Source: a virus. Taken from it: DNA of 24,506 nucleotides. The stretch covers positions 1-24,506 of IMG/VR virus record IMGVR_UViG_3300030450_003620; one strand, written 5' to 3'. Shown here piece by piece: positions 258 through 16,210 of this stretch. Numbering within the stretch: position 1 is the first letter of the stretch; every line of letters starts with the position of its first letter. The notes below the pieces were generated by a model. The model was not told where the DNA came from. It saw only the letters and a program-made list of their open reading frames with translations, and searched no databases. The position numbers and the translations under genes were made by a program.

Positions 258-3200
258 TTGCCTTTACCAGAAGAATTTTATAATAGAAGTAAAAGTCGAA
301 ATAGTAGAATATCGCCTACTTATAGTGGGTTATATCCTACTTTTGGAGAAGAAGAGGAGGAAGATGATGGTTTTAGCCTTTTAGACACATTAGGCTCTGG
401 GTTACATCATTTTGTTTCTGCTGGTACTATGGGACTTAGTGAATTTGCTGCTCCAACTAAAGCTTGGGAAGAGAAGGGTACCGATGAAAGAATAGGTGCT
501 GCTCTTGGTGAAGCTTTAGGTATGTTTTTACCTATGGGATGGATAGGTAAAGGTGTTAGCGTTGGAATGCAAGGACTAAGACATGGCTCTAGACATATTG
601 CAAAGAAAGCTATAGCTAAAAGTACTAATAAAATAAATAATATTGCTGCTAAAAATGCTGCCAATCAAAGTTTAAACAAAACTGTATTTTCAAAAGAAGG
701 TAAAAGATTACTATTTCAACATGAATTAGGTGGAGAAGTTGCTCAACAAGTTAATAGTCAATTAGTATTAAAGGTTGAAGCAGACTTAATGAGTGCTCTT
801 TCTAAAAAAGGTGTCAACATTACGAAAGATTACAAGAAAAAAGTAATTGATAAAGTAATGAAAGACTTTAAAGAAGGGCTAGCTGATGGAGAGCATTTAA
901 ATACAGTTTCTTCTTGGATGCATAAAAAAATAGGTCCAACATTAGGAACTTCTGGTCTTGGTAAATGGACAGCTAAATATATGGGAGAGGTTGCTCAAGA
1001 TGCTGTTATTTTAGGATTGCACGGAGTAGTTCACAATACTATGATGTCAGCAGCAAGAGATGATGTTCCATTTGCACCTGGCTCAACATTAGGACATTCT
1101 TTAGCTATGTCTTTTGCATTTCCATTAATTAGATCTATACCTGGAGGAGGAGAAAGAAGATTTGATGAAGGGTGGAGGATTTTAACAAAAAATCTTAAAA
1201 AAACTGATTATAAAAAACTTGCTAAGGAATCAAATGGCCCTGAAGACTTAAGATCTCTTGTTAGGATGTTAGGAAAAAATAATATACTTTCTAAAAATAA
1301 ATGGACTTTAAAATCTGGGAAGCAAATACATCTTGATGAATTAGCAGATGATGCATTTTTGAAAAAGGAAGGCTTAGATGATTTAATAGATTTAGCTGAA
1401 CAAATGAGAGATAGTGTTACTAAGATGGATATGTTTAAAGTTTGGGGGAAATCATATGTAGCAGACACTTTTAATTTAGGTACTATATCAAGAATGTCTA
1501 TAGGTGCGGCTGCAATGAATATTGACATGTTTAGACATAATATGGCAGGATTTAGAAGTCTTCCTCCTGAAGAATTATTAACTCATATGTTAATAGGTGG
1601 ATTTATGACTAGAGGTAGAGGTGGCTGGGCTAGAGATCCTCAATCAAGAACGGGAGATCAGAAAGCAAAAGAAATCAACGAATATTACGCTTTAATGAAC
1701 GAATTAAGTATTGATCATAGCAAAGTATCAGATTACTTAAAAGTTAAGGATATGGCTGATTATTTGAAACAAACTCATATTGGAATATTAATGGATCCTA
1801 CAGCTGTAGAGATTGTAGATATATTTAAAAAATATGAAAAAAGAATTATTGATGAAGGAAGAACGGTTGATAAATCTAAACAATTTGAAATAAATGATAT
1901 TTTATATGATTTTTCTTTACTTAGACAAGCTGCAGGGGTCATGGAAGATACAGGATATGGAGCACCTAACTATAAATTATTAACTGAGTCTGAAAAAACA
2001 AATTTAAGAAATGATTTAAGAAATGTTAAATTCAAAGACAAAACCCTAAAAGATACAAGTTATAGTGAATTAATGAACTATATTGAAGGTAATCAAAAAG
2101 ATGCTATTAAAGAATTATATACTACCTTTCTTAAAAGATTAAGAAGAGAAAGTCAAGATGGAGCTGGAGACCAAATACTAGATCTTTCTATAGATGCTAA
2201 TGGAATTATTCGTCATGGAGGTGTGAATTTTGGTAGTGAATATAGCTCTCCTGGAGAATTGCACAATTTATTAAAAGTTTTTGAAAAATATAATTTAGCA
2301 ATACATGATTCAAGTAAAAAAGAAATAGATTTATCTGATGTAAATAGTTCTCAATCAAGAAGATTAGAAAGAGTTCTTCCTGAATTCAAAAAAACTCAAA
2401 ATAGATTAGGATTAGGAGAGGGGGCTGAATATTCATTTTCTTTAGGCAATCCTCAAGAAAACCCTTATTTGAGAAATATGGTAAATGCATTCCTTTATGA
2501 ATCTCAAAAACGAAATAGCGATATTTTTACTAATCAAATTACTCCTGAATTTAGAAACGATAAAGGCTTTTTAGATGTAATCAGAAGAGAGCTTACTGAT
2601 GGCGGCAAGGCTATAAGGCCTGAAAATGTTACTATAAAAGTAGAAGAAGGAGTAGAAATAGATCCTCTTATTCACAATCAATTTCATGGAATTGTGCAAG
2701 CTATACATTCAGGTGCAAAAAGTTTTTCTGGAAAGACAAGTCATGAGGTTCCTTTGGAAATTGCGCAAAGAATTATTGGTGCCTATGAAAGTTTAAAGAT
2801 TGGTAAGCCAGAAGCATTATTAGATAGAAATGTATTGAATTATATAAGTTCTCAAGCTGATGCTAAGATAAATATTTCTCCACATATTCATCGGACTATA
2901 AGACGTTTAGATGAACATGGTTTGGTACATATTGATAGAGAACAGGGGATGATTTTAGTTAATTCAGAAACAAGTATTAAACTTATTGCAAAAGAAGCTG
3001 GTATTGATAGTAATAAAGCATGGGAAAGATATAGAGATCTATTAGAATTACTTCCTTCAAGGCAGATTGTAGAACAGGAAGGTCCTCTTGATTTTGCTGA
3101 TAAGGCTGTTGAAATAACTGCATTAAAAAATATTCACAAAACATTACCTGAAGTATATAACAAGGAAGTTAGAAATGAAATAACAAAAGTTCTTGATAAT

Positions 3201-6200
3201 AAAACTCTTCAATTTGATGAATTTACAGAAAAGAATGCTTTAGAACAGTTAGATTTACTTGAAGCTAATTTAAAATCAATGAACTATAAAGAAGCTCTTA
3301 TTACTTTAGAAAATCTAAAAAAGATAGTACCTGGTTTTGATTCTAAAAAAGTACCTTCTGAAATACGATATGATAAAGTTGCTGATGCCTATAGAATATA
3401 TATATATGGAAGAGAATTAGGACATATAGCCGTAGCAGATGTTAATTGGAGCCCTGCTAGCAGATTTACGATAGCCAAAGATAAAGCTTATGATATGGCT
3501 CAAAAGAAAGCTAAAGAATTTATGGATAATTTGCCAGCTGATATGGCCCCTCAAACTCATTATGAAAGCTTATTTAATACTATAACGGCTGCAGAAAAAA
3601 GTGGGATGGGTTTAAGTCTCCAAGTTTACGAGTATAGCAAAGGTAGTGGACAGGTTTATGATGCTATTAAAAATTTAGTACATGAATCTAGAAGTTCTTC
3701 TGAATTAATTGAAAATTATTTAGGTCATATAATATATAAAGGAAATAACTATAAATTTGCTGCTATAAATGATCACTCTAGATTAGTTGACAATTTAAAT
3801 ACATTACTCAGAAATACGAATCAAAAAGTTAGTTTAAATGAATTATTTAAAGTGTATATACAAGATAATACATTGAAATCTTTAAACGACTTAATGACTG
3901 GATTAAATCAATTATATGCTGGCAGAAATAGCGTTAATTTGTTAGATAGTCAAAACTTAATGAATGCTTATCATAGATTTATGAATAATGCAACAGACAG
4001 GCCAAGTAAAACTAGAATAACTATAGGTAATAAATATGGACTTTTAGATGCTGAGAATGGATTGCATCCTAGAGTAATAGAGCACTTAAAAAGGGGCGAT
4101 TTTGATGCTATTAAAAAAAGAATTCCAGCAGATAAATTAGGATCTGAATTAGATAGTGATTTATTAAATTTAGCTTGGATAGTCAATAATGCAAAAGAAA
4201 GAAGGGCTATATCATTTACTGAGAAAATAATTGATGGAGAGGTTTATAGAATTAGAGAATGGATAAATCCTGTAGATAATCCTGAGTTTATAACTCCAGG
4301 AGGTAGAGTTTTAGATAAGTTGAATGAAGTAGGTATTGAATTAGTTCAAATTAAAAAGTCAGGGGTAATAAATCGTAGGTTTATAAATGATATTAGTCAA
4401 ATTGAGAATGTAAAAGACTTGTTTCAACAAACAAATTTAGATATGCCTAGCGATAAGTATATAAATGATGTTATTAGAAAAGGTGGAGAATTATCACCAA
4501 GAGATGAGGCAAACGCTAGATTAGTTATGGGTAATCCTACAGGCAGGACAATGAGATATGTAGAAGTTTCTTTTGGAGCTCCTTTAGCTTTCTTGGAAAC
4601 AAAAAAATCTACAGCAGCTTTAAATAAAGCCTATCATTCATTTTATGTTAATACATTAAAAAGATATAATAATGAAATGAAAACAGGTTTAATTGCTCCA
4701 GATGAAGGTCATATGCTCATTAAAAACTTTAAGCGTGTTTTTGATCCTTCAAATGTAACTAGTCCTGAATTAAAAATAAGAGCATTATATTTAGCTAATC
4801 TAAATTCGGCTACTTTTGATAAATCTTTCTCAAGCAAGGCTATTTCTGACATGACTACTGAAAAAGGGCATTATGATATAAATATGTCTTTATTGAAATA
4901 TACAAAGTTAGCTGAAGGAGGCTCTTTAAAAGCTATTCCAGATAGACAGACATTAACAGATGTTATGCTCAAATTAGCAACAGCTCCTGATTCTACTATA
5001 CCTAAAAGGAGATTGAATTCTATTGAAAATATAATAAATGATCTTACTCCTACTAGTGAAGGAGGAACTGGAAAAGGTATTAGATATGGTTTTATATCTG
5101 ATGAAGCTGGCGGAAATCCTCTTTTGGTTAGAAATAGAGCTTTAATACAACATACTTCTGAATCCAATATTTCAGATCCTGTATTAAGAAAATATTCTAA
5201 GGATAGATATTCAGATCTTGAAAGATTTAAAGCTACTATGGATCAATCTTCTATTGATGGAGCTATTTATATAGATAGGGATACATATAACTTAATGCGA
5301 ACTTTAATGGCTGAAGGGGGAGATGTAAATGGATTTAAAGGCTCTATAGCTAGAGGTCATATTGATGATTCGGGATATGTTTTATTTGGTAAAGGATTAT
5401 TTATTTTCGATCCTCAAGTCTCTAATGCAATGGAATCAAAAGGTATAAGATTCTTAATGGGCAATTCAGCTGCTAAAGATAAAAAAGGATTTGCTTTAAA
5501 TGCTAAACCTGTAGAAGGAAAGGTTTTTGAGAGTACTGATTTTATTAGAGAAATAGATAAAATGGGTGATTCAAATATTATGCAAGGAACTTTTGATGGA
5601 GTAGGATTGAGATTTGCAGGACATGTTTCAGCAAATTCTCCAGTACCACATCCTTATACACATTTTATGCCTAGAGATTTAGTTATAGGAATTAGAGAAG
5701 GATGGATGGGTCTTTCTAATAAGATAGATGAATTAAAGAGCTTTTCTAATTCTTTAAAAGATGTCGCTAAATCAGAAGTTCAAGAAATGTTAGTAAGACA
5801 AGCGAATTTGCATGGGCCTAGTCATCAGATGGATATGCCTAGTTTTGCAGAATCGATGATAGCTATGGGCTTTAATACAAGAAATGAAGTTGTAAAAAAA
5901 GCTGTAATGAAGATGTTTGAAGAGCAAACTTTACCAACTTTATTTAAACCTAAAAATCCTAAATTTGCATATCCTTTATTAATGCCAGATTATAAGTCTT
6001 TACAGCCTCTATCTGTTGATATTGTAAATCGTAATGGAGAAAGAAAAGGTGCTGCTAGAATTCAATTAGGAGAGGCTACTATTGGAGCTGATGCTAAGTA
6101 TACTCCAGTAAATTCTGTTAATGAACTTATATTCTCTATGAGAGTAGGCGATGTTGATTATATAGTTAAGCATGATTCTGGTAAATTTCAAGCTTATACA

Positions 6201-9035
6201 GCATTAAGAGATATTCAAAAATCTGGTAAATATAATACAGATATTAAATCTGATGTATTAAAGCAGCTCCCAAGAAATAAAGATGTTCAAGTTCCAATAG
6301 AGCTTCAAAAATTTGTAAAATATTTAGATAAAGTCATTCAAGGTGATCCAAGTATCCCTAGACATGAAATACATACTACCGTTGATGGACAAACTGGAAA
6401 AGTTTCTTTTGAAGGCGTTCAAAGATTAATTGAATCAAGTTATTATAATAAAAAATTCAAACTTGATAAACATAAATTTGGTACTGTTATCATGGTTGAA
6501 CGTGGTCCAAGAAAAGGAAGGTCCGATTTTATACCAGCTAGAGTAAGAGTAAGAACTGAAGGTGAAAAATTAATAGATTATGATAAAATAGGCACTTTAT
6601 TCGGATTGAATCCTTATGATGCTAGGGCTAATGCTCAAGCTGATTGGGATGGAGATAAAGTAAGATATACTTTTGACTTTAAAAATGTGGGTAAAGATGC
6701 ATCTAAATGGAAAATGTTAAAACAAGCATTTAGAGAATCTTCTATGAATGAAGAATATACAACCCTAGAAACTCCTATTAGAGAAACTAATATATGGGGC
6801 ATAGGTACAGATAAAAATGGAGATTTAACCCATATGGGTGCTCGTGATTATGATTCAATGTCTGGTATTAAAAGATCTGTAATAAATGAAAGAATGGCTA
6901 TAGGTAAAGTTATTGGTGTGCAATCTGGATTAGAATATGCTTCTTTAATAGAATTATCAATAGATGGGCAAAAATTAAATGAAAAATTAGGTTTTAGTGT
7001 AGATCATATTATGGAATATGGCAATATGTATAAAAGATTTGATAAAGCGAGTCAAAGTGCTGTTGATTTTATAAAAGGCATAAATAAAACTTTATTATCA
7101 GATCCTTATGGCTATTACTTTTATGGAGATGGAGAAAGTCAGTTAAAAGGGAAATTGTTTAATTTCGAAGCAGGAGATGTAAGAAGAGATGTTTTTAATG
7201 AAGTTGTTGATGTTCTAAGAAGACCATCATCTATTTTCAATAAGGTATGGAGTGATGGAGGATCTCAAAACCCTACTTCATTTCATGTTCAATCAGAATA
7301 TGTTAATTTATTGAAATTCTTCAAAAGTCCTAATAGTTATGTATTTAATAGATTAGTTAAAAAGTATCAAAGAACTGGTAATTTAAATGAAAAACTAAAT
7401 AGTTTAATACCTCTATTCTTTAAAGTAGAAGGAAAAGATATTATGCCTAGAGATATTGATGGGTTGAAAAGCTTAGCCCTTCAAGGAAAATTAAAACCTA
7501 GAAATAATGTTTTGCAGTTTGGAAAAGGTACTGCTGAATCGTTATTAAAAAGATCTAATGTTGGCTTTATAATGAGTGAAGTTATTAAAAGCAATATTTA
7601 TAAAGTAGGTGAAATTGATTATGCTTGGTCTGATCAAAGTGGTAAGGGAATTAGAGATTTAAGAAAGTTAAAATTAGATTCAGAAATATTTGTTGATCAG
7701 CTTTCTTTATATAGAGTTCTAGGCGTAGATATTAAAGATATGCATGCAAATCATGATATAATGTTCTCTGGAAGCAAAAAGAAGTTTATAACACAACAAG
7801 AAAATGCAGGTATTATGCACGCTTTATTATCAGAAGAAGTAAGATTCTTAGAAAATAAATTAGAGACTCAATATGGATTTAGAAATCCAAATCAAGCAGT
7901 TACTGGAAGAGCTACTCAAAGATTGCTAGATGTCAATCATGCAATGAAATATTTAGAAGAAGTTAGAGGTTTGCAAGTATTGGAAGATATAAAGCCTACT
8001 ATAAGTAAATATAAGTTTAATTTTAAAGGAAGCCGACATTATAATAAGACATCAAAAGAACAAACTATATATAAAATTAAAAATAATATGTCATTATATA
8101 CTAAAGATGCAGATGGTGTAAGCGTGCCAAATTTTAATGCTTTGGAATATGTTGGCATAGTAGGAAGAAATAAAAGGTCAGAAAAAACATTGCATGGAGA
8201 GCATTTAATTTTAAATAATCCTATTATATCGCATAGATTGTCAAAAGATAGAACTTTAGATGGATATACATGGCATTATATGCACAATAATGTCCCTGCT
8301 TTTACAGATAAAGTCAGTTTTCAAAATTATAGTAAAGAAGCACTTGGACTTCAGATGAAACTTAGCAAATTATGGTCTAACTCTATTGATGCACTTAAAA
8401 CAAATAGAGATCTTACGACTGATATATTTGAAAAAGTTCACAGAGATAGAGCTATGTTGCTTAATGAATTCTTTAAGACATATTCAGGGACAGAGCCTGT
8501 TGATGCTAAGTTTATTATACCTGGTTTCGATGCTCAAGAATCTTTAATTTACTATAAAACAAAAATGCTTTTAAAACCTCATTTAGTAGCTAGGCAATAT
8601 GTTAAAACAGATAATTTTGATTTACCTTATTTAAAAACAAATCAAAAAGTATTTGAAAATACAATGTCTTGGTTGCATGATAATGGTTATGGACATATAG
8701 GTAAGAAAATTGCTAGTGAATATAATAACATAAAGGATTATTTGACAGGAATGAGCAATGATCGTACTTTTGATTTAAAAGCGAGTCCTTTATATTTAGA
8801 AAAATACACAATTCCTGATGGGGTTCATAAGGAAACATTTTTAAATATAATGCAAGGCATAGTTACTCCAGATCTTCAATATAAATTTCAAAGTATAGGT
8901 GCAAGTACATATGAAATTGAAAAGCAGCGTACTCAAGAAGGAGATTTCTCGATAAGACAAATAAGAAATCAATTTGAAAAATGGAATGAATATAGTTATG
9001 ATAGAAGAAAACAAAATCTTTGTGGAGGAGGATAA
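258..9035 (+). CDS. Giant virion protein, candidate virion RNA polymerase (DxDGD motif)
   Basis: This 2,925-residue protein is a candidate ejected RNA polymerase. Seen: D2129-W-D2131-G-D2133 in the context NAQADWDGDKV, closely matching the beta-prime NADFDGDQM loop that holds the catalytic magnesium. About 50 residues upstream, VIMVERGPRKG followed by FIPARVRV matches the order and character of NRAP...FEPVLI in beta-prime, as expected for the second double-psi beta-barrel. Roughly residues 80-105, 240-300 and 410-455 are Gly/Ala-rich and hydrophobic, as in internal virion proteins that cross membranes during DNA entry. The rest is charged and unassigned. Known: single-chain polymerases with DxDGD or similar motifs occur in YonO and crAss-like phages; N4 ejects a different, T7-type giant polymerase. 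Start: TTG at 258 behind AAAGGAGGTGATT. It ends in a TAATG overlap with the next gene. Alternative: an ejection protein with a degenerate barrel. I could not place the partner barrel with its two lysines. Confidence 0.72.
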   Translation: MPLPEEFYNRSKSRNSRISPTYSGLYPTFGEEEEEDDGFSLLDTLGSGLHHFVSAGTMGLSEFAAPTKAWEEKGTDERIGAALGEALGMFLPMGWIGKGVSVGMQGLRHGSRHIAKKAIAKSTNKINNIAAKNAANQSLNKTVFSKEGKRLLFQHELGGEVAQQVNSQLVLKVEADLMSALSKKGVNITKDYKKKVIDKVMKDFKEGLADGEHLNTVSSWMHKKIGPTLGTSGLGKWTAKYMGEVAQDAVILGLHGVVHNTMMSAARDDVPFAPGSTLGHSLAMSFAFPLIRSIPGGGERRFDEGWRILTKNLKKTDYKKLAKESNGPEDLRSLVRMLGKNNILSKNKWTLKSGKQIHLDELADDAFLKKEGLDDLIDLAEQMRDSVTKMDMFKVWGKSYVADTFNLGTISRMSIGAAAMNIDMFRHNMAGFRSLPPEELLTHMLIGGFMTRGRGGWARDPQSRTGDQKAKEINEYYALMNELSIDHSKVSDYLKVKDMADYLKQTHIGILMDPTAVEIVDIFKKYEKRIIDEGRTVDKSKQFEINDILYDFSLLRQAAGVMEDTGYGAPNYKLLTESEKTNLRNDLRNVKFKDKTLKDTSYSELMNYIEGNQKDAIKELYTTFLKRLRRESQDGAGDQILDLSIDANGIIRHGGVNFGSEYSSPGELHNLLKVFEKYNLAIHDSSKKEIDLSDVNSSQSRRLERVLPEFKKTQNRLGLGEGAEYSFSLGNPQENPYLRNMVNAFLYESQKRNSDIFTNQITPEFRNDKGFLDVIRRELTDGGKAIRPENVTIKVEEGVEIDPLIHNQFHGIVQAIHSGAKSFSGKTSHEVPLEIAQRIIGAYESLKIGKPEALLDRNVLNYISSQADAKINISPHIHRTIRRLDEHGLVHIDREQGMILVNSETSIKLIAKEAGIDSNKAWERYRDLLELLPSRQIVEQEGPLDFADKAVEITALKNIHKTLPEVYNKEVRNEITKVLDNKTLQFDEFTEKNALEQLDLLEANLKSMNYKEALITLENLKKIVPGFDSKKVPSEIRYDKVADAYRIYIYGRELGHIAVADVNWSPASRFTIAKDKAYDMAQKKAKEFMDNLPADMAPQTHYESLFNTITAAEKSGMGLSLQVYEYSKGSGQVYDAIKNLVHESRSSSELIENYLGHIIYKGNNYKFAAINDHSRLVDNLNTLLRNTNQKVSLNELFKVYIQDNTLKSLNDLMTGLNQLYAGRNSVNLLDSQNLMNAYHRFMNNATDRPSKTRITIGNKYGLLDAENGLHPRVIEHLKRGDFDAIKKRIPADKLGSELDSDLLNLAWIVNNAKERRAISFTEKIIDGEVYRIREWINPVDNPEFITPGGRVLDKLNEVGIELVQIKKSGVINRRFINDISQIENVKDLFQQTNLDMPSDKYINDVIRKGGELSPRDEANARLVMGNPTGRTMRYVEVSFGAPLAFLETKKSTAALNKAYHSFYVNTLKRYNNEMKTGLIAPDEGHMLIKNFKRVFDPSNVTSPELKIRALYLANLNSATFDKSFSSKAISDMTTEKGHYDINMSLLKYTKLAEGGSLKAIPDRQTLTDVMLKLATAPDSTIPKRRLNSIENIINDLTPTSEGGTGKGIRYGFISDEAGGNPLLVRNRALIQHTSESNISDPVLRKYSKDRYSDLERFKATMDQSSIDGAIYIDRDTYNLMRTLMAEGGDVNGFKGSIARGHIDDSGYVLFGKGLFIFDPQVSNAMESKGIRFLMGNSAAKDKKGFALNAKPVEGKVFESTDFIREIDKMGDSNIMQGTFDGVGLRFAGHVSANSPVPHPYTHFMPRDLVIGIREGWMGLSNKIDELKSFSNSLKDVAKSEVQEMLVRQANLHGPSHQMDMPSFAESMIAMGFNTRNEVVKKAVMKMFEEQTLPTLFKPKNPKFAYPLLMPDYKSLQPLSVDIVNRNGERKGAARIQLGEATIGADAKYTPVNSVNELIFSMRVGDVDYIVKHDSGKFQAYTALRDIQKSGKYNTDIKSDVLKQLPRNKDVQVPIELQKFVKYLDKVIQGDPSIPRHEIHTTVDGQTGKVSFEGVQRLIESSYYNKKFKLDKHKFGTVIMVERGPRKGRSDFIPARVRVRTEGEKLIDYDKIGTLFGLNPYDARANAQADWDGDKVRYTFDFKNVGKDASKWKMLKQAFRESSMNEEYTTLETPIRETNIWGIGTDKNGDLTHMGARDYDSMSGIKRSVINERMAIGKVIGVQSGLEYASLIELSIDGQKLNEKLGFSVDHIMEYGNMYKRFDKASQSAVDFIKGINKTLLSDPYGYYFYGDGESQLKGKLFNFEAGDVRRDVFNEVVDVLRRPSSIFNKVWSDGGSQNPTSFHVQSEYVNLLKFFKSPNSYVFNRLVKKYQRTGNLNEKLNSLIPLFFKVEGKDIMPRDIDGLKSLALQGKLKPRNNVLQFGKGTAESLLKRSNVGFIMSEVIKSNIYKVGEIDYAWSDQSGKGIRDLRKLKLDSEIFVDQLSLYRVLGVDIKDMHANHDIMFSGSKKKFITQQENAGIMHALLSEEVRFLENKLETQYGFRNPNQAVTGRATQRLLDVNHAMKYLEEVRGLQVLEDIKPTISKYKFNFKGSRHYNKTSKEQTIYKIKNNMSLYTKDADGVSVPNFNALEYVGIVGRNKRSEKTLHGEHLILNNPIISHRLSKDRTLDGYTWHYMHNNVPAFTDKVSFQNYSKEALGLQMKLSKLWSNSIDALKTNRDLTTDIFEKVHRDRAMLLNEFFKTYSGTEPVDAKFIIPGFDAQESLIYYKTKMLLKPHLVARQYVKTDNFDLPYLKTNQKVFENTMSWLHDNGYGHIGKKIASEYNNIKDYLTGMSNDRTFDLKASPLYLEKYTIPDGVHKETFLNIMQGIVTPDLQYKFQSIGASTYEIEKQRTQEGDFSIRQIRNQFEKWNEYSYDRRKQNLCGGG

Positions 9036-11761
9036 TGAATAGTTGCTTTTACGGTGAATATAATAAAGACTTTGATGATATAGTTCAACATTGGAATAGT
9101 AAAAAAATGATAGCTAAAAATATAGGTAAAGTAGGTGGTAATAGTTCTGAAGAATACTTTACTCAACGTTATTTAAATGATGTATCAGAACATTTATTCA
9201 AAGTTCCTTTTGATAGTGCTTTCAAATTTAATAAAGGTGAAGTTAATAGATTTAAATTAGAAATAGATAATATTGAAAGAAACTATCTAAGTAAAAAAAT
9301 TGGAGCCTTTAGAAAGAACTTTTATGTTTCTGATGCTATCGCAAATTACTCTCCTGTTACTCGTATGTTTTACAATAAAGTAAATAATGCTATTAACTAT
9401 GAAAGAAATCATTTAGATCAATATCTTACAATGACAAATGACGTTGTTAGCAATATTAGAAAAGCTTTAATTACTAAGTCTGGTATGAGTAAAAAACAAG
9501 CTAAAGAATACTTGAAAGAAATGGCAGATTTAGAAAATAAAATTTTAAGAGCTGAGGCTAAAGATGGTGCTTCAGCTGAAGTTGAAAATAATATATTATT
9601 AGAAAGATATAATCAATTATACGAAAAAAATGGAGAAGGCGTTGTAAAGGACTATATAGAGTTAATGGAAATGCCTAAAGCTGAATATAAAAAGGCTGCA
9701 AAGAATAGAGATGAATTAATGGGTCGTGTTTATGACGAAAATGTTTTAAAAGCAGTAGATTCATCTAGGATTTTATTAGATTCTATGGGAAAAGTTTTAA
9801 TAAATGGTCTTGATAGAATGACAAATGTAGTTGAAATGATGTATGACAGTCCTTTGATGCCAAAAACAGGTAGAAATTATGTAGAGAGAATAAATAAAGC
9901 TAAAAAGGCTGTTAGAGAAGGTATAGAAGATGGAGGATATCTCCCCCATTATTTGATTGATAATATTGTTGAAACAAACTATAAAATGAGACAGTTGTTA
10001 GAATCAAAAAATTCACTTACTAGAGAATCAAGAATAGACGAACTTACTGGAAAAGTAGAATTAATGACTCAGATTCCCGATCAATCTAGAGGAAGAAATG
10101 TATTATTAAATAATACTTGGAGCAAAAATCCCTTTCATATTTTAACTCAATATTCTAAAGATGTTATAGCTTTTAATAAAATTAACTATATTCAAGAAGC
10201 TTATTTACCTGCTATAAGAAGATTTCAAAAAGATGATAGTAATCCAGAATTCATGAGAAGTATGAGAGATTTTATTAATGATACTTTTCAAGTTTCAACA
10301 ATGGGACTTATGGAAAGGCCTAATGTTGTTAATGGATTAGTTAGAGGTATAATGGCAGCGGAAACTTTAAAATCTATGGGTTTATCTGTTACTGGTGCTA
10401 TTAGAAATGGTGCTAGTGGAATGTATTTCTTTGTAGAAAACGGGATATTGGCTGCAAAAAAATCTGTAGAATTATATAATAGAAATGATTATAAAAAAAT
10501 GTTAAGTGAAATAGAAGCTGAACAAGGATTTGCTTTTGCAGAAGCAGGTAGAGAACTTGTTACAGAAGGTTTAATTCCATCAACAGTTAATCAGACTGAT
10601 ATTGTATTTGATCCAATAAAGCAAAAAATATCGTATCGAGATAGAGGAGTATTGAAAACATTAGATCCTATAATTGATAAAACTGTAGGCGCATCTTTGG
10701 TTTTCCATAGAGCTACTGAAAACTTTACTAGAAAATGGATGTTTAGAATTGCATGGATTCAAGCTTATGAAGCCTTAAAGGGTAAAAATATCGTAGATCC
10801 ACGTAAAAATAAATCAGGTGAAGAAACATATGATATAGCTACTACAAATAAATTGAAAAAAATGGCTACTGAAACAGCTCTTAAAACTGTGAATAAATAT
10901 GCATTTGAATATGCTGCTCATGCTAAAGCTAGGGCTGTTGGCGGAACTGCTCCTATGGGTAAACTCGGTCCAGATGGTCTTCCTAAAATGAGTGGAAGAG
11001 ACTATGCCACAGCTTTAGGAGAGGTTACATTTCAATTTATGCATTATCCTATGTCTTTTATGAATTTACAATCAAAGATATTAAAAGGAGCTAAAGATGC
11101 AGCTCTTTCTAAACAATGGGATGCTCCTGAAATAAAACAAGCTTTAAGATTAGCTGGTATATATATGACTGTAGGTGCTTTATCAGTAATGACTAATTTA
11201 GATTTCACAAATTTATTAGAAAATGATACAGTTGAAAGAGTAAGGGATCTTTCTGAATATTTAACTAGTGATGAAAAAGAATTGAAGGATAAAAAACGTG
11301 GCTTAATTAATGACTTTACTGGTCCTATAGTAGGTGATATGCTATATGCATTAAATATGATGCAAATGTATAAAATGCCTGAAGAAAATTGGCAGAAAAT
11401 GCTTACAGGATATATAGATTATTATGAAGAGGAAGGCTTTGATAATACTAAATGGAGTTCTTTTGAAGATTGGCAAGAAAAAAGACATTTTTGGAATAAA
11501 ATGAACGTTGAATTAGCTAGATGGATGACTAAAAGTTTACCTGCTGTAAGAGATGGTAGAGGTTTAGATCTTGTTAGGCACGAATTAGGGTTATATCCAA
11601 GAGCTCATTTAAAAGAGAAAAGAACTCATTGGAATAAAAGAATAGAAAAATCTTTAGGGTTCAAGCCTTTTACAGGTGGAATTAAAGGAAAAGATAATTC
11701 TGCTGATGCTAAAGATAATTTATTGAAGTTAATAGATGAGATAAAAATACACGGTTATTAA
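9035..11761 (+). CDS. Internal virion / DNA-ejection protein (908 aa)
   Basis: The ATG at 9035 overlaps the stop of the giant gene (TAATG) and has GGAGGAGG just upstream. A TTG at 9020 is in frame, but it lies upstream of that ribosome binding site. The protein is mostly alpha-helical and charged. Hydrophobic stretches lie around residues 430-475 (GIMAAETLKSMGLSVTGAI, then a segment containing MYFFVENGIL) and 700-728 (LAGIYMTVGALSVM). This pattern, and its place directly after the polymerase-like giant protein at the end of a late operon, fits proteins ejected with phage DNA, such as the internal core proteins of podoviruses. Translational coupling suggests a fixed ratio to the giant protein. 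I recognise no enzymatic motif. The virion role is inferred from context and composition, not from a diagnostic domain. Confidence 0.55.
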   Translation: MNSCFYGEYNKDFDDIVQHWNSKKMIAKNIGKVGGNSSEEYFTQRYLNDVSEHLFKVPFDSAFKFNKGEVNRFKLEIDNIERNYLSKKIGAFRKNFYVSDAIANYSPVTRMFYNKVNNAINYERNHLDQYLTMTNDVVSNIRKALITKSGMSKKQAKEYLKEMADLENKILRAEAKDGASAEVENNILLERYNQLYEKNGEGVVKDYIELMEMPKAEYKKAAKNRDELMGRVYDENVLKAVDSSRILLDSMGKVLINGLDRMTNVVEMMYDSPLMPKTGRNYVERINKAKKAVREGIEDGGYLPHYLIDNIVETNYKMRQLLESKNSLTRESRIDELTGKVELMTQIPDQSRGRNVLLNNTWSKNPFHILTQYSKDVIAFNKINYIQEAYLPAIRRFQKDDSNPEFMRSMRDFINDTFQVSTMGLMERPNVVNGLVRGIMAAETLKSMGLSVTGAIRNGASGMYFFVENGILAAKKSVELYNRNDYKKMLSEIEAEQGFAFAEAGRELVTEGLIPSTVNQTDIVFDPIKQKISYRDRGVLKTLDPIIDKTVGASLVFHRATENFTRKWMFRIAWIQAYEALKGKNIVDPRKNKSGEETYDIATTNKLKKMATETALKTVNKYAFEYAAHAKARAVGGTAPMGKLGPDGLPKMSGRDYATALGEVTFQFMHYPMSFMNLQSKILKGAKDAALSKQWDAPEIKQALRLAGIYMTVGALSVMTNLDFTNLLENDTVERVRDLSEYLTSDEKELKDKKRGLINDFTGPIVGDMLYALNMMQMYKMPEENWQKMLTGYIDYYEEEGFDNTKWSSFEDWQEKRHFWNKMNVELARWMTKSLPAVRDGRGLDLVRHELGLYPRAHLKEKRTHWNKRIEKSLGFKPFTGGIKGKDNSADAKDNLLKLIDEIKIHGY

Positions 11762-13332: not shown

Positions 13333-13351
13333 TTTTTTCCTTTCTGTCAAC

Positions 13352-13472
13352 TAGAGAGCCTCACATATTCCTTTGCCTGAACGATACTTGGACTTATTTT
13401 CCCTGTAGATGACTGGCCAAATTGGAAATGTGTCATCTTTACCATACAGGAGGACCAGTTATTGGCTCTCTA
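13352..13472 (-). promoter_or_regulatory. Structured RNA element, copy A of a two-copy family
   Basis: A 9-bp terminal helix, TAGAGAGCC (13352-13360) with GGCTCTCTA (13464-13472), closes the element. Positions 13354-13378 and 13451-13470 are identical to the ends of copy B at 15525-15626, while the 72 bases between are unrelated. Inside copy A a second helix forms from 13402-13413 with 13432-13437 and 13445-13450 (GATGAC/GTCATC stacked on CCTGTA/TACAGG, with a 7-base bulge). It lies between the primase-helicase stop and the basic peptide start. It reads as a leader RNA of the leftward transcript; class unknown. Confidence 0.65.
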
Positions 13473-13486
13473 ATCTCCTCCGACGT

Positions 13487-15226
13487 TTAATTTTCACCTA
13501 TTAATGCATTCTTTACTGGTAAATGAACATCAAGATTTTCTCTTTCTCTATTAGCCGTACACTCCAAATGCAAAGATTTGATTAAGTTATTTTCATCTTT
13601 ATATGGTGTCAAAGATAATACTTTATTCGCATTATATGCAATTCTAAAAGATCCTTTAGAAGATGCTATGTTCATACCTTCGGTGAAAGCTGTTTTAGTT
13701 ATTTCAGATACAGCAAATACAATAATATTGTTTTGTACAGCAAGTTCCATTAATGATTGCGAAACTTCTTCCACTTTCATATTATTATCATGCTTTTGAG
13801 TCTTAAATAAACCCATGTGATCTACAACAACTATTTCAGGTTTCTTTGGCAGCATTAATATTCGTTTATGCAACTCTTGTGGATAGCAACTACTATAATC
13901 AACTGTTAGCCAATCAAAGCTTTTACTTATTCCATTTGCATATTTGCTATAATAGTCTTTTAGTTCTTCTTCTGACCATTTATTTTCTATCATAACAAAT
14001 CGCATCCACATTTGTCTTGGACTCATTTCCATTTCCATAAAATATGTAGTACGTTTGAATCTATTAACTAGATTTTGTAATAACATTGTTTTCATAGATT
14101 TAGGAGGAGCTTGTAATATAACAACCTCTCCTGGATAAACAGGAAATTTTTGTCCATATGGGGCACCTATATCTATAGGATTATGATTTCTTGTTAAGAA
14201 TTCAACTAATTCCTTTTCCATAGTATGTGCATCCATAGTATTTTGTGAGACTTTAGATTTATATAGTCTACATGTTGATTGACAATGTTTATCCATATGT
14301 ACATCTGTACAGCCATAATTATAGCCATTCCCATTATGTCCTTCATAGCAATCAGTAACTATTTTATCCATCTCTGCTTTAGTAAAGGGATGTGATTTAA
14401 GATCTACTCTTTGTCTCCAATCCTCCATTACTAATCTAACTATATGTTCTGGATATCTCCATCTTAAGAAAGCACCTACTCTTAAAGCTAATTGATGCCT
14501 TGAGCCTTGAGCCCCACCTTCCATCATTTTCTGAATACAAGGATACCATACTGGATCGGGATTTCTTCCTAATGATACAGCTTCAAATTCTTTATCACTT
14601 GCAACAGATTTTCTTTCTAGAACATCAAATACTGGTTCGCATTCTAATTCAGTCCATTTGTTTGTAGTTCTTTTAGTTTTTGCTAACTTTTGTATTTCCT
14701 CTATTGGTTCATGTAATTCAGCATGAGATAAAGGAATCTTCCATAATTTAGACTTACTATTTAATGTATTTACAACTCTAATGATTCTTGTCTTGTCGGA
14801 TACTGATGGATCAGCAAATTCATAGATACCTCTAGCTTTTAATTCATCCTTGACCTTTAAATGTAAGTCAGGACATGGCTTCCATCTGAAAGCATCGCCT
14901 GGTATTCCTAAATGAAATCCTGTTCCTGAAAAGTATATACGATAAGGCACACATAAATCATCTAATTCTATAGTTAATCCTATAGTTTTATCTTTAGCTT
15001 GTTTAGGATTAGCTCCATCTACATCCAAAATAAATTCATCTGGCATATATAATATTCCATCATATCCAGATAAACTTCCTTTCTCTTTAACATAATCAAC
15101 TACATGTCCATCATAATCCCATAAAGACATAAATGTATCTTGAGCCATACCAGCGTATTTCTCAACATCATTTACATCTCCAAAGTGATGTCTATTAGCT
15201 AATCCGAATGCATATTCCTTGATCAT
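13487..15226 (-). CDS. Primase-helicase fusion (AEP/PrimPol-like primase + DnaB-type ATPase)
   Basis: This 579-residue replisome protein primes and unwinds phage DNA. The N-terminal part is an archaeo-eukaryotic-type primase: D68-V-D70 (FILDVDG), SGTGFH with H105 (nucleotide-binding sxH motif), then D139 and DKTRIIRVVNTLNSKSKLWK (144-163). Residues about 220-320 resemble the helical region after such primases, with Cys306, Cys315 and Cys319 as a possible metal or Fe-S site. The C-terminal part is a RecA-fold helicase: P-loop APPKSMKT (373-380), Walker B IVVVDH with D469, and VFAVSEIT, which matches the DnaB SQ-type sensor strand. The P-loop lacks both consensus glycines (GxxxxGKT) but keeps Lys-Thr. 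The ATG has AAGGAG upstream. The next gene upstream (15240-15509) ends 13 bases before this start, so the two are co-transcribed. Family-level call secure; polymerase activity untested. Confidence 0.85.
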   Translation of the reverse strand: MIKEYAFGLANRHHFGDVNDVEKYAGMAQDTFMSLWDYDGHVVDYVKEKGSLSGYDGILYMPDEFILDVDGANPKQAKDKTIGLTIELDDLCVPYRIYFSGTGFHLGIPGDAFRWKPCPDLHLKVKDELKARGIYEFADPSVSDKTRIIRVVNTLNSKSKLWKIPLSHAELHEPIEEIQKLAKTKRTTNKWTELECEPVFDVLERKSVASDKEFEAVSLGRNPDPVWYPCIQKMMEGGAQGSRHQLALRVGAFLRWRYPEHIVRLVMEDWRQRVDLKSHPFTKAEMDKIVTDCYEGHNGNGYNYGCTDVHMDKHCQSTCRLYKSKVSQNTMDAHTMEKELVEFLTRNHNPIDIGAPYGQKFPVYPGEVVILQAPPKSMKTMLLQNLVNRFKRTTYFMEMEMSPRQMWMRFVMIENKWSEEELKDYYSKYANGISKSFDWLTVDYSSCYPQELHKRILMLPKKPEIVVVDHMGLFKTQKHDNNMKVEEVSQSLMELAVQNNIIVFAVSEITKTAFTEGMNIASSKGSFRIAYNANKVLSLTPYKDENNLIKSLHLECTANRERENLDVHLPVKNALIGEN

Positions 15227-15239
15227 ATTATCTCCTTAT

Positions 15240-15509
15240 TTAAACAACATCATTAGGAAAATTAGTTTGTATTTCACGTAATTCCCATATTTGCTGTCTA
15301 TTTGTTCTGTCTAATTTCCTAACTTTTAATATACCATCAGTTCTCATTCTTCTAAATTCTCTAGTATATGTTTCAGAGCTACCTAAGAATTTTCCAAAAT
15401 CATGTTTTCCTATATAAGCTAATTCCTGTATATCTGATGTTTTGAATCTTGTCAATCCAACTGATGCTAATTTCATTAATTTATTTATTATATGTTCTCT
15501 TACTGTCAT
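15240..15509 (-). CDS. Small winged-helix-like DNA-binding protein
   Basis: An 89-residue protein with the predicted order helix-helix-helix-strand-strand: REHIINKLMKLA, TSDIQELAYI, then ETYTREFRRMRTDGILKVRK, followed by a basic wing-like segment. This fits a winged helix in which TREFRRMR would be the recognition helix. It lies directly upstream of the primase-helicase and could be a replication initiation or loading factor, or a repressor; that is inference. The ATG has AAGGAGATGAG upstream. The structured element 15525-15626 ends 5 bases before that SD, so expression of this gene is the obvious target of copy B. Confidence 0.55.
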   Translation of the reverse strand: MTVREHIINKLMKLASVGLTRFKTSDIQELAYIGKHDFGKFLGSSETYTREFRRMRTDGILKVRKLDRTNRQQIWELREIQTNFPNDVV

Positions 15510-15524
15510 CTCATCTCCTTATTA

Positions 15525-15626
15525 ATGAGAGCCTCACATATTCCTTTGCCTATCCTTACCCATAACTTTAAATGGATTGTCCATTGAGCACAGACAGGGC
15601 TTATAGGACCAGTTATTGGCTCTCAT
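15525..15626 (-). promoter_or_regulatory. Structured RNA element, copy B of a two-copy family
   Basis: Closed by a 9-bp helix ATGAGAGCC (15525-15533) with GGCTCTCAT (15618-15626). Its outer blocks 15527-15551 and 15605-15624 are identical to copy A, but the 53-base centre differs and contains its own hairpin, AATGGA/TCCATT (15571-15576/15580-15585, loop TTG). In the leftward transcript the last bases UCUCAU can instead pair with AUGAGA over the start codon of the downstream gene, enclosing its AAGGAG in the loop. Formation of the closing helix would release the ribosome binding site, the logic of a translational ON switch. Ligand or partner unknown. Confidence 0.65.
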
Positions 15627-15640
15627 CAAATGTTTAGTTA

Positions 15641-16210
15641 TTAGAATTGGTTAGCAAAAGCGTCTGAATCAACTTCTGCAGTATATCCATTAGTTGATTT
15701 TTTAGTAGCTTCTAGCATATTCTTAACTCTTTTCTCTGCTCCAGATTTAATAGAATCTACATCTGTAGTTTTGAATGATAAATGTTCACCTTCTTGAACA
15801 ATAGGAGCTATACTATCAAATACACGAGAATATTTATTACCTGATTTATTCTCTTTGTATACATAGATATTTATAGTCTTACCTACTAATCCTTTAGCTT
15901 CATCATCAAATTGAATTAATGGATGCTTACCATTAGGATCTTTAAGTACGCCTACTATACCAGCATTTGCATATTTAAAGATATTAGCTACTTTGAATTC
16001 TTCCTTAGTTGCTTTATTAAATACTTCATAAGCACGAAGATTCATATTATCAGGATAGTCTTCAAACCATATATCTAAATACCTTTTATCGTCTGTATCA
16101 GGAACATCTGATTCATATACACCATATTCAGCTTTAGATATTACAACTTCATGCCATCCTTCATCAAATTTACTTCCTCCTGTGGAAGCAGACATTGTTT
16201 TAATTGCCAT
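15641..16210 (-). CDS. Single-stranded DNA-binding protein (phage gp2.5/DUF669-like)
   Basis: A 189-residue protein with an OB-fold-like strand pattern: GWHEVVISKAEYGVYES, KRYLDIWFEDYPDN, then NINIYVYKEN-type strands (seen as TINIYVYKENKSG near residue 120). Phage SSBs of this kind begin with a short disordered segment and contain an aromatic-rich core followed by a flexible acidic tail. Here the C-terminus is EVDSDAFANQF, acidic and ending in Phe, which resembles the protein-interaction tips of SSBs. It would coat single strands during replication and cooperate with the ERF annealing protein encoded 9 bases upstream. The ATG has AAGGAGAGAAA upstream. I could not verify the fold, so an unrelated replication accessory protein is possible. 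Confidence 0.6.
   Translation of the reverse strand: MAIKTMSASTGGSKFDEGWHEVVISKAEYGVYESDVPDTDDKRYLDIWFEDYPDNMNLRAYEVFNKATKEEFKVANIFKYANAGIVGVLKDPNGKHPLIQFDDEAKGLVGKTINIYVYKENKSGNKYSRVFDSIAPIVQEGEHLSFKTTDVDSIKSGAEKRVKNMLEATKKSTNGYTAEVDSDAFANQF

Follow-up and report, generated by a model that had tools for sequence, protein, structure and literature searches.

A constant RNA frame with exchangeable structured cargo in phage operons

Two short elements in a 24.5-kb virus contig (IMG/VR record IMGVR_UViG_3300030450_003620, whose 24,506 nucleotides are called the window below) are copies of a sense-strand RNA embedded in phage operons. The RNA is a stem-loop in which a constant frame surrounds a variable centre, the cargo, and this cargo, sometimes together with the whole frame, has been replaced much faster than the surrounding genes. 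The anatomy of the frame and the swapping of its cargo are observed, with very high confidence. What the RNA does is inferred: in the best explanation, a tentative one that may well not hold, the internal loop of the frame would be a platform and the structured, exchangeable cargo modules would bind host factors in trans. Taken only as a motif, the RNA would be a new family of structured RNA; the novelty is the system of frame and cargo. The initial annotation of this DNA had described two structured elements with identical ends; that the cargo is exchangeable and modular across many phages was not seen there and is added here.

Anatomy of the element

Read from the outside in, the frame consists of an outer stem, P1 (12-13 bp), an internal loop (AAUAACUGG / AUAUGUGA), a 4-bp stem, P2 (UCCU/AGGA), and then the cargo. 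P1 combines GAGAGCC/GGCUCUC with an outer part that is A/T-rich and specific to the locus. The RNA strand of both window copies is the minus strand, on which the neighbouring replication genes are also encoded, a point that had previously gone unnoticed. The positions first given for both copies were correct and the end blocks exact: each block has two matches in the window, against 0.03 and 0.00 expected by chance (at most 3 mismatches). The closing helix, described as 9 bp, had to be redrawn: it has 12 bp in each copy and is followed by the conserved 9/8-nt internal loop and the 4-bp P2. The minus-strand RNA of the two copies folds beyond shuffled sequences (z -3.4 and -5.1).

Copy A with its locus-specific outer stem (13348..13476) occupies the gap between a gene for a primase/DnaB-like helicase (579 aa, 13487..15226, minus strand; PHROG 19 and 16345, Pfam DnaB_C) and the Shine-Dalgarno site of a small downstream ORF. 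On the minus strand, its P1 pairs AGATTAGAGAGCC (13464..13476) with GGCTCTCTAGTTG (13348..13360), the conserved internal loop has AAUAACUGG at 13455..13463 and AUAUGUGA at 13361..13368, and P2 joins UCCU (13451..13454) to AGGA (13369-13372). The cargo (13373..13450) contains a hairpin, CCUGUA...UACAGG (13445-13450 / 13402-13407), after which comes an inner sub-frame, UAAGUCC...GGCAA, with UAAGUCC at 13390-13396. Copy B with its outer stem (15521..15630, minus strand) lies in the gap from a gene for an SSB-like protein (189 aa, 15641..16210, minus strand; PHROG 378, weak) to the Shine-Dalgarno site of the ORF at 15240-15509 on the same strand. Its parts, likewise on the minus strand, are P1 (TTTGATGAGAGCC, 15618..15630, with GGCTCTCATTAAT, 15521..15533), the internal loop (AAUAACUGG, 15609..15617; AUAUGUGA, 15534..15541), P2 (UCCU, 15605..15608, with AGGA, 15542-15545) and the cargo (15546..15604), in which the sub-frame UAAGCCC (15597-15603)...GGCAA surrounds a stem-loop. 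The two centres had been called unrelated: they do differ for the most part, but both end in the inner sub-frame UAAGYCC...GGCAA. In both copies P1 ends a few nucleotides ahead of the Shine-Dalgarno site.

Elsewhere in the window, a 2925-aa ORF (258-9035, plus strand) has no Pfam or PDB sequence match. Its NAQADWDGDKVRY at residues ~2125-2137 resembles the DxDGD catalytic motif of RNA polymerases, and the ORF may encode a giant virion RNA polymerase. A 913-aa ORF (9020-11761, plus strand), which overlaps the end of the larger one, has no PHROG, Pfam or INPHARED match.

A frame conserved as RNA

The internal loop is near-invariant. Among 130 copies, at least 127 are identical at every position of its 5′ side except one (U/C), and at least 126 at every position of its 3′ side, although the adjacent SSB proteins fall to about 29% identity (median 41%). 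P1 changes in a way that preserves pairing. Covariation had been proposed from the two copies of a single genome; it is borne out over 57 distinct copies, which score 0.361 against 0.131 when shuffled and at most 0.110 in a control with the columns slid by 1-3. A search for homologues with compensatory changes had been suggested as a check, and such homologues exist: P1 changes on both sides at 11 of its 13 pairs. The copies are not phylogenetically independent, and the comparisons with shuffles are guides rather than probabilities.

More divergent homologues (L267, L285 and L289-L302) were sought by loop plus pairing, with no hits in a reversed-sequence control; in these, P1 and P2 change together and the loop is kept. 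In L267 the stems read GGGAGUC..GACUCCC and, for P2, AGAUAAU/AUUAUCU, the latter needing a one-base shift relative to the consensus; L294 is a further divergent frame with the loop kept and both stems changed together. Searching for frames with a different first P1 base gave only coding chance hits, which implies that the junction of loop and stem is strictly kept. A divergent-frame scan of IMG/VR returned five stretches, in which the only confirmed frames were L268 and L317.

Mismatches in P1 identify the functional strand: at 11 inner positions, 109 distinct outer stems hold 44 G.U and 5 A.C pairs. A G.U pair on one strand is an A.C pair on the other, so the functional RNA is that of the window's minus strand.

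Exchange of cargo and of whole frames

The cargo measures between 3 and more than 115 nt. Most copies have at its start the inner sub-frame (R)UAAGUC...GGCAA, the first pair of which is C-G in 73 of 83 distinct cases, G-C in 6 and U-A in 3, and about one-fifth of copies, copy A among them, carry an extra hairpin ahead of AAUAAGUC. Some frames are nearly empty (L118, UCCUUUUUAGGA; L184). Taken alone, the centres gain little over shuffles in folding (mean z -0.37), and their folding energy by itself is uninformative.

The exchange is visible in two kinds of comparison. Where flanks are closely related (at least 90% identical upstream and at least 85% downstream), the cargo is unrelated in 13 of 15 copy pairs and the same in 2; an unrelated cargo stands in place of that of copy B in L089, whose flanks are 94-96% identical. 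Conversely, 65 pairs have similar cargo (at least 88% over at least 40 nt) and no similarity in their 1-kb flanks. The cargo of copy A is ~97-99% identical to that of five other loci (L058, L115, L160, L055 and L040), and for L058 the identity is 98.7% over 77 nt between unrelated flanks. Cargo can also be composite: in L202, a stretch of 105 nt resembling L086 is joined to 55 nt from L213.

Replacement extends to the frame itself. In L237, whose SSB is 100% identical to that of the window and whose DNA is 97-99% identical around both sites, site B holds another structured RNA (GAGAGUGAGGCGAUUUCGUC...CACUCUC) and site A a mini stem-loop (GGGGGUCGAUAAACGG...GCUCCC) within the unchanged outer stem. 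Across 73 related SSB loci, the studied frame directly follows SSB in 28 and a different hairpin does so in most others, some of these being plain and terminator-like with U tracts (L263-L266, L279). Assembly chimerism is an unlikely cause of the swapping, because the swapping recurs in many independent contigs and the replacement RNA in L237 lacks the 20-25 nt end blocks. Evidence on the mechanism of exchange is suggestive only: it could involve short shared arms (GAGAG...CTCTC) and a phage ERF annealing protein. In the close relatives L239-L247, the gap downstream of SSB contains another recurrent RNA, CUGUUGGGAAUC...ACACGGGUGUCGUGUCRGAAUAA, with a variable insert site of its own.

Modules shared with other RNA frames

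Centre modules recur outside the studied frame, always named F1 below, on the sense strand. (The names F1-F6 and the module names were assigned in this analysis; F2-F6 were delimited by eye, without covariance models.) Module M2 occurs in F1 (L009) and in at least three other RNA settings: it is found in a GAGAUGUAAGUC...GCAUUCUC frame (L206, L318) and in a third frame (L044), with further contexts in L086, L099 and L319. Module M15 is shared by F1 (L016, L227) and F2 (L208, L021). Compensatory changes were seen at three pairs of M5 (six copies) and, read by eye, in M2.

Other features of these loci deserve mention. In L021, about 1.1 kb after a tRNA-Met gene (2700-3790) has no obvious gene and holds several frames (F1, F2 and F3) along with a short fold that resembles a tRNA and includes a T-arm-like GGGTTCGATTCC; a GOLLD RNA lies ~1.5-2 kb upstream of this frame-packed stretch. 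An F1 cargo in L035 (1680-1815) has a tRNA T-arm-like GGGTTCGAATCCC that is closed by GTAAG/CTTAC. A module with GGGAAUGGUGCAAAUCC recurs in L023, L021 (3502-3575), L183 and L221; it recalls the core of the cobalamin riboswitch, and it has no Rfam match in L021 or L023.

Distribution and genomic context

Pattern scans found ~137 copies in IMG/VR, all on metagenome-derived contigs. Excluded from these were L031 and L156, in which one block matched by chance only, and the hits in L122-L125, which are coding. Among 84,980 species genomes of bacteria and archaea, a scan for the fully conserved 19-mer gave one real copy, on a phage-like contig binned with a Flavobacteriales MAG; a second match was without the second block. 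Among INPHARED phages, blastn with a minimal copy found no element; its two matches were 17 nt long and due to chance. Marine viromes presumably account for many of the IMG records, and the phages carrying the element are uncultured and probably marine. The initial annotation could place the RNA in no riboswitch or ribozyme class, and this holds: no Rfam ribozyme or riboswitch matches in the window (no Rfam 15 match at curated score), in a search of the region at lax thresholds (chance hits only) or in 20 related loci (only GOLLD and one tRNA, both outside the element). Nor does any cargo module in the window and the 20 loci reach the gathering score of an Rfam family, known antitoxins and decoys included. 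No description of the element was found in the open-access literature, a search that left out subscription papers and preprints.

The element lies between early genes; it is intergenic and co-oriented with its genes, and often occupies the stretch between stop codon and Shine-Dalgarno site (median distance 17 nt upstream and 28 nt downstream); in 42 of 139 copies there is no Shine-Dalgarno site plus start within the 65 nt scanned. Its neighbours fall into more than 20 protein clusters and include SSB, the commonest upstream neighbour (35 copies; neighbour cluster 0), DnaB-like proteins, a ThiF/E1-like protein, an AAA ATPase and a spore-photoproduct-lyase-like radical SAM protein. Most genomes have a single copy: 45 of 50 phage records have one 3′-block match, 3 have two good matches and the remaining 2 have one good and one weak match. 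The variety of neighbours together with the mostly single copy argues for a trans-acting or genome-level role, not single-gene control, and cis-regulation of one gene was rejected on account of the varied contexts. Neither window copy scores as an intrinsic terminator (a GC-rich stem directly followed by a U tract), and this identity was rejected for most copies, as a terminator-like U tract is present in only 21 of 138.

Some element-bearing phages encode the ThiF/E1-like protein adjoining the element. In some others a short ubiquitin- or ThiS-like protein adjoins it, a resemblance seen by eye without a Pfam match; the loci concerned in these two observations are L034 and relatives, and L005, L090 and L228.

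Possible functions

The operon RNA with a constant frame and exchangeable cargo is observed; the function tentatively proposed for it is inferred throughout. The invariant loop would serve recognition, as a platform for a protein or nuclease of phage or host origin (there are no binding data), and the bound factor might stabilise the stem-loop or excise it from an early polycistronic mRNA (there are no processing data). Cargo would then be the working end, with modules that bind host factors in trans, again in the absence of binding data; their most plausible role would be as decoys or inhibitors of RNA-targeting defences. The cargo repertoire would be under strong diversifying selection and spread by recombination. 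That the role is to bind or decoy host factors such as RNA-targeting defences is, without expression data, no more than a conjecture and rather unlikely to be right as it stands. It is favoured because fast turnover with retained module structure is counter-defence-like, counter-defence loci being known for very fast turnover, and because phage RNA decoys have precedent. That precedent is the reported ToxI mimicry in phage PhiTE (PMC3475682). The prevalence of one copy per genome and the more than 20 gene contexts also support action in trans. Several points count against the proposal: there are no expression, processing or binding data, all sequences being metagenomic; the near-empty frames show that the frame persists without cargo; the terminator-like hairpins in the SSB-downstream slot of relatives fit a purely cis role; the centres on their own fold little better than shuffles; and no module in the window or the 20 related loci matches a known antitoxin or decoy at gathering scores.

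A different account is that the gap needs a stable stem-loop in cis, which protects the upstream message (for example that of SSB) or tunes the next gene, so that any hairpin serves and swaps are inconsequential. Though unlikely, it is a serious rival since the same gap is filled by ordinary hairpins in relatives and frames persist when nearly empty: of the 73 relatives examined, nearly all have some hairpin after SSB, in some cases a terminator-like one with a U tract, and the space between stop codon and Shine-Dalgarno site is typically taken up entirely by the element. It leaves unexplained, however, why a 17-nt internal loop is invariant across neighbours at 29% protein identity and why modules with conserved loops and compensated stems recur in other frames, and it sits poorly with the more than 20 gene contexts and the scarcity of terminator-like U tracts. 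The cis slot could also have been reused as a carrier, in which case the cis and trans readings could both hold. A signal at the DNA level (a recombination, packaging or replication hairpin) would suit the mostly single copies at variable positions and their siting among replication and recombination genes, but it is barely tenable: orientation follows the genes, and G.T is tolerated where A.C is not, on one strand only, which is the mark of RNA pairing and the ground on which a DNA hairpin was rejected.

Frames and modules might instead be selfish mobile hairpins that jump into stem-loops and hence nest in one another. Modules do recur at unrelated sites and nest in frames, identical ones have unrelated flanks, near-empty frames exist, whole frames are replaced within a locus's own outer stem, and mobile hairpins reported from organelles provide a precedent (PMC2800124, PMC4478555). 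The signs of insertion are mixed, since at homologous slots replacement rather than insertion is seen. The reading is nonetheless improbable, because there is usually one copy per genome without proliferation, whereas a mobile element would leave multiple dispersed copies with fixed termini. Moreover, the outer P1 bases are locus-specific and covary, unlike transposon ends, the closing stems of modules differ by compensation instead of being carried along intact, and no transposase or target duplication was seen. An invariant internal loop between variable stems is also the usual look of a self-cleaving ribozyme or riboswitch, with the loop as catalytic core or ligand site and the cargo as a peripheral stem, and P1 ends just before the Shine-Dalgarno site in both window copies. 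A role of this kind is very improbable in view of the lack of any Rfam ribozyme or riboswitch match in the window and the 20 related loci, the variety of downstream genes (more than 20 neighbour clusters, where a riboswitch would keep a consistent 5′ UTR position in a regulated gene class), the 42 copies without a Shine-Dalgarno site and start, and the wholesale replacement of cargo, which it does not explain.

Comparison with known systems

Among known phage RNAs, GOLLD (RF02032) is similar in plan: this ncRNA, often near tRNAs, has a constant part and a less conserved part, its 5′ region and internal linker (PMC12286853). It is, however, unrelated in sequence and often longer than 800 nt, whereas the element is a short operon stem-loop with swapped apical cargo. 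GOLLD has no match in the window; it is present in 6 of 54 phage records carrying the element, as a separate locus, and the two loci are generally apart. For the proposed function, the ToxI-like RNA of phage PhiTE, a phage decoy against a host defence toxin, offers a reported precedent (PMC3475682). ToxI mimics are single antitoxin repeats, whereas the element is a frame with exchangeable nested modules, and no sequence relation between them is established.

Integron attC sites and retron ncRNAs, like the element, have constant ends and a variable middle that folds as a hairpin. An attC site, where recombination acts on single-stranded DNA, has conserved outer boxes and works with an integrase, and retrons need a reverse transcriptase; neither enzyme was seen among the annotated window genes, and in contrast to attC the constraint on the element acts on RNA. 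Organelle mobile hairpins, compared here as double-hairpin elements, repetitive hairpin-forming elements and the GC-rich mobile DNA of yeast mitochondria, are likewise reported to be short, intergenic and apparently mobile (PMC2800124, PMC4478555). The element differs from them in usually having one copy per genome, in closing stems that are locus-specific and covary, in its RNA-strand constraint and in its constant frame with changing cargo.

Implications

Together these phages may share a combinatorial RNA toolkit: constant frames in operon gaps, nestable plug-in modules swapped between phages, and a fast-evolving interaction repertoire, for example for counter-defence. This is a real possibility, though its chances are somewhat below even. 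If true, it would mean that an RNA-based interaction repertoire evolves without new protein. The parts of phage genomes that turn over very fast usually encode proteins that interact with the host, for instance receptor binders and the products of anti-defence genes; here such turnover affects a structured RNA whose frame is fixed and whose set of modules is apparently inherited. Even if the element acts only in cis, it offers a large natural collection of RNA folds that can stand in for one another within a single constant context, of use in studies of RNA structure and evolution. Should the modules act in trans, the shuffling of small folds would be how phages evolve specificity based on RNA, and the function of many orphan phage RNAs would become testable.
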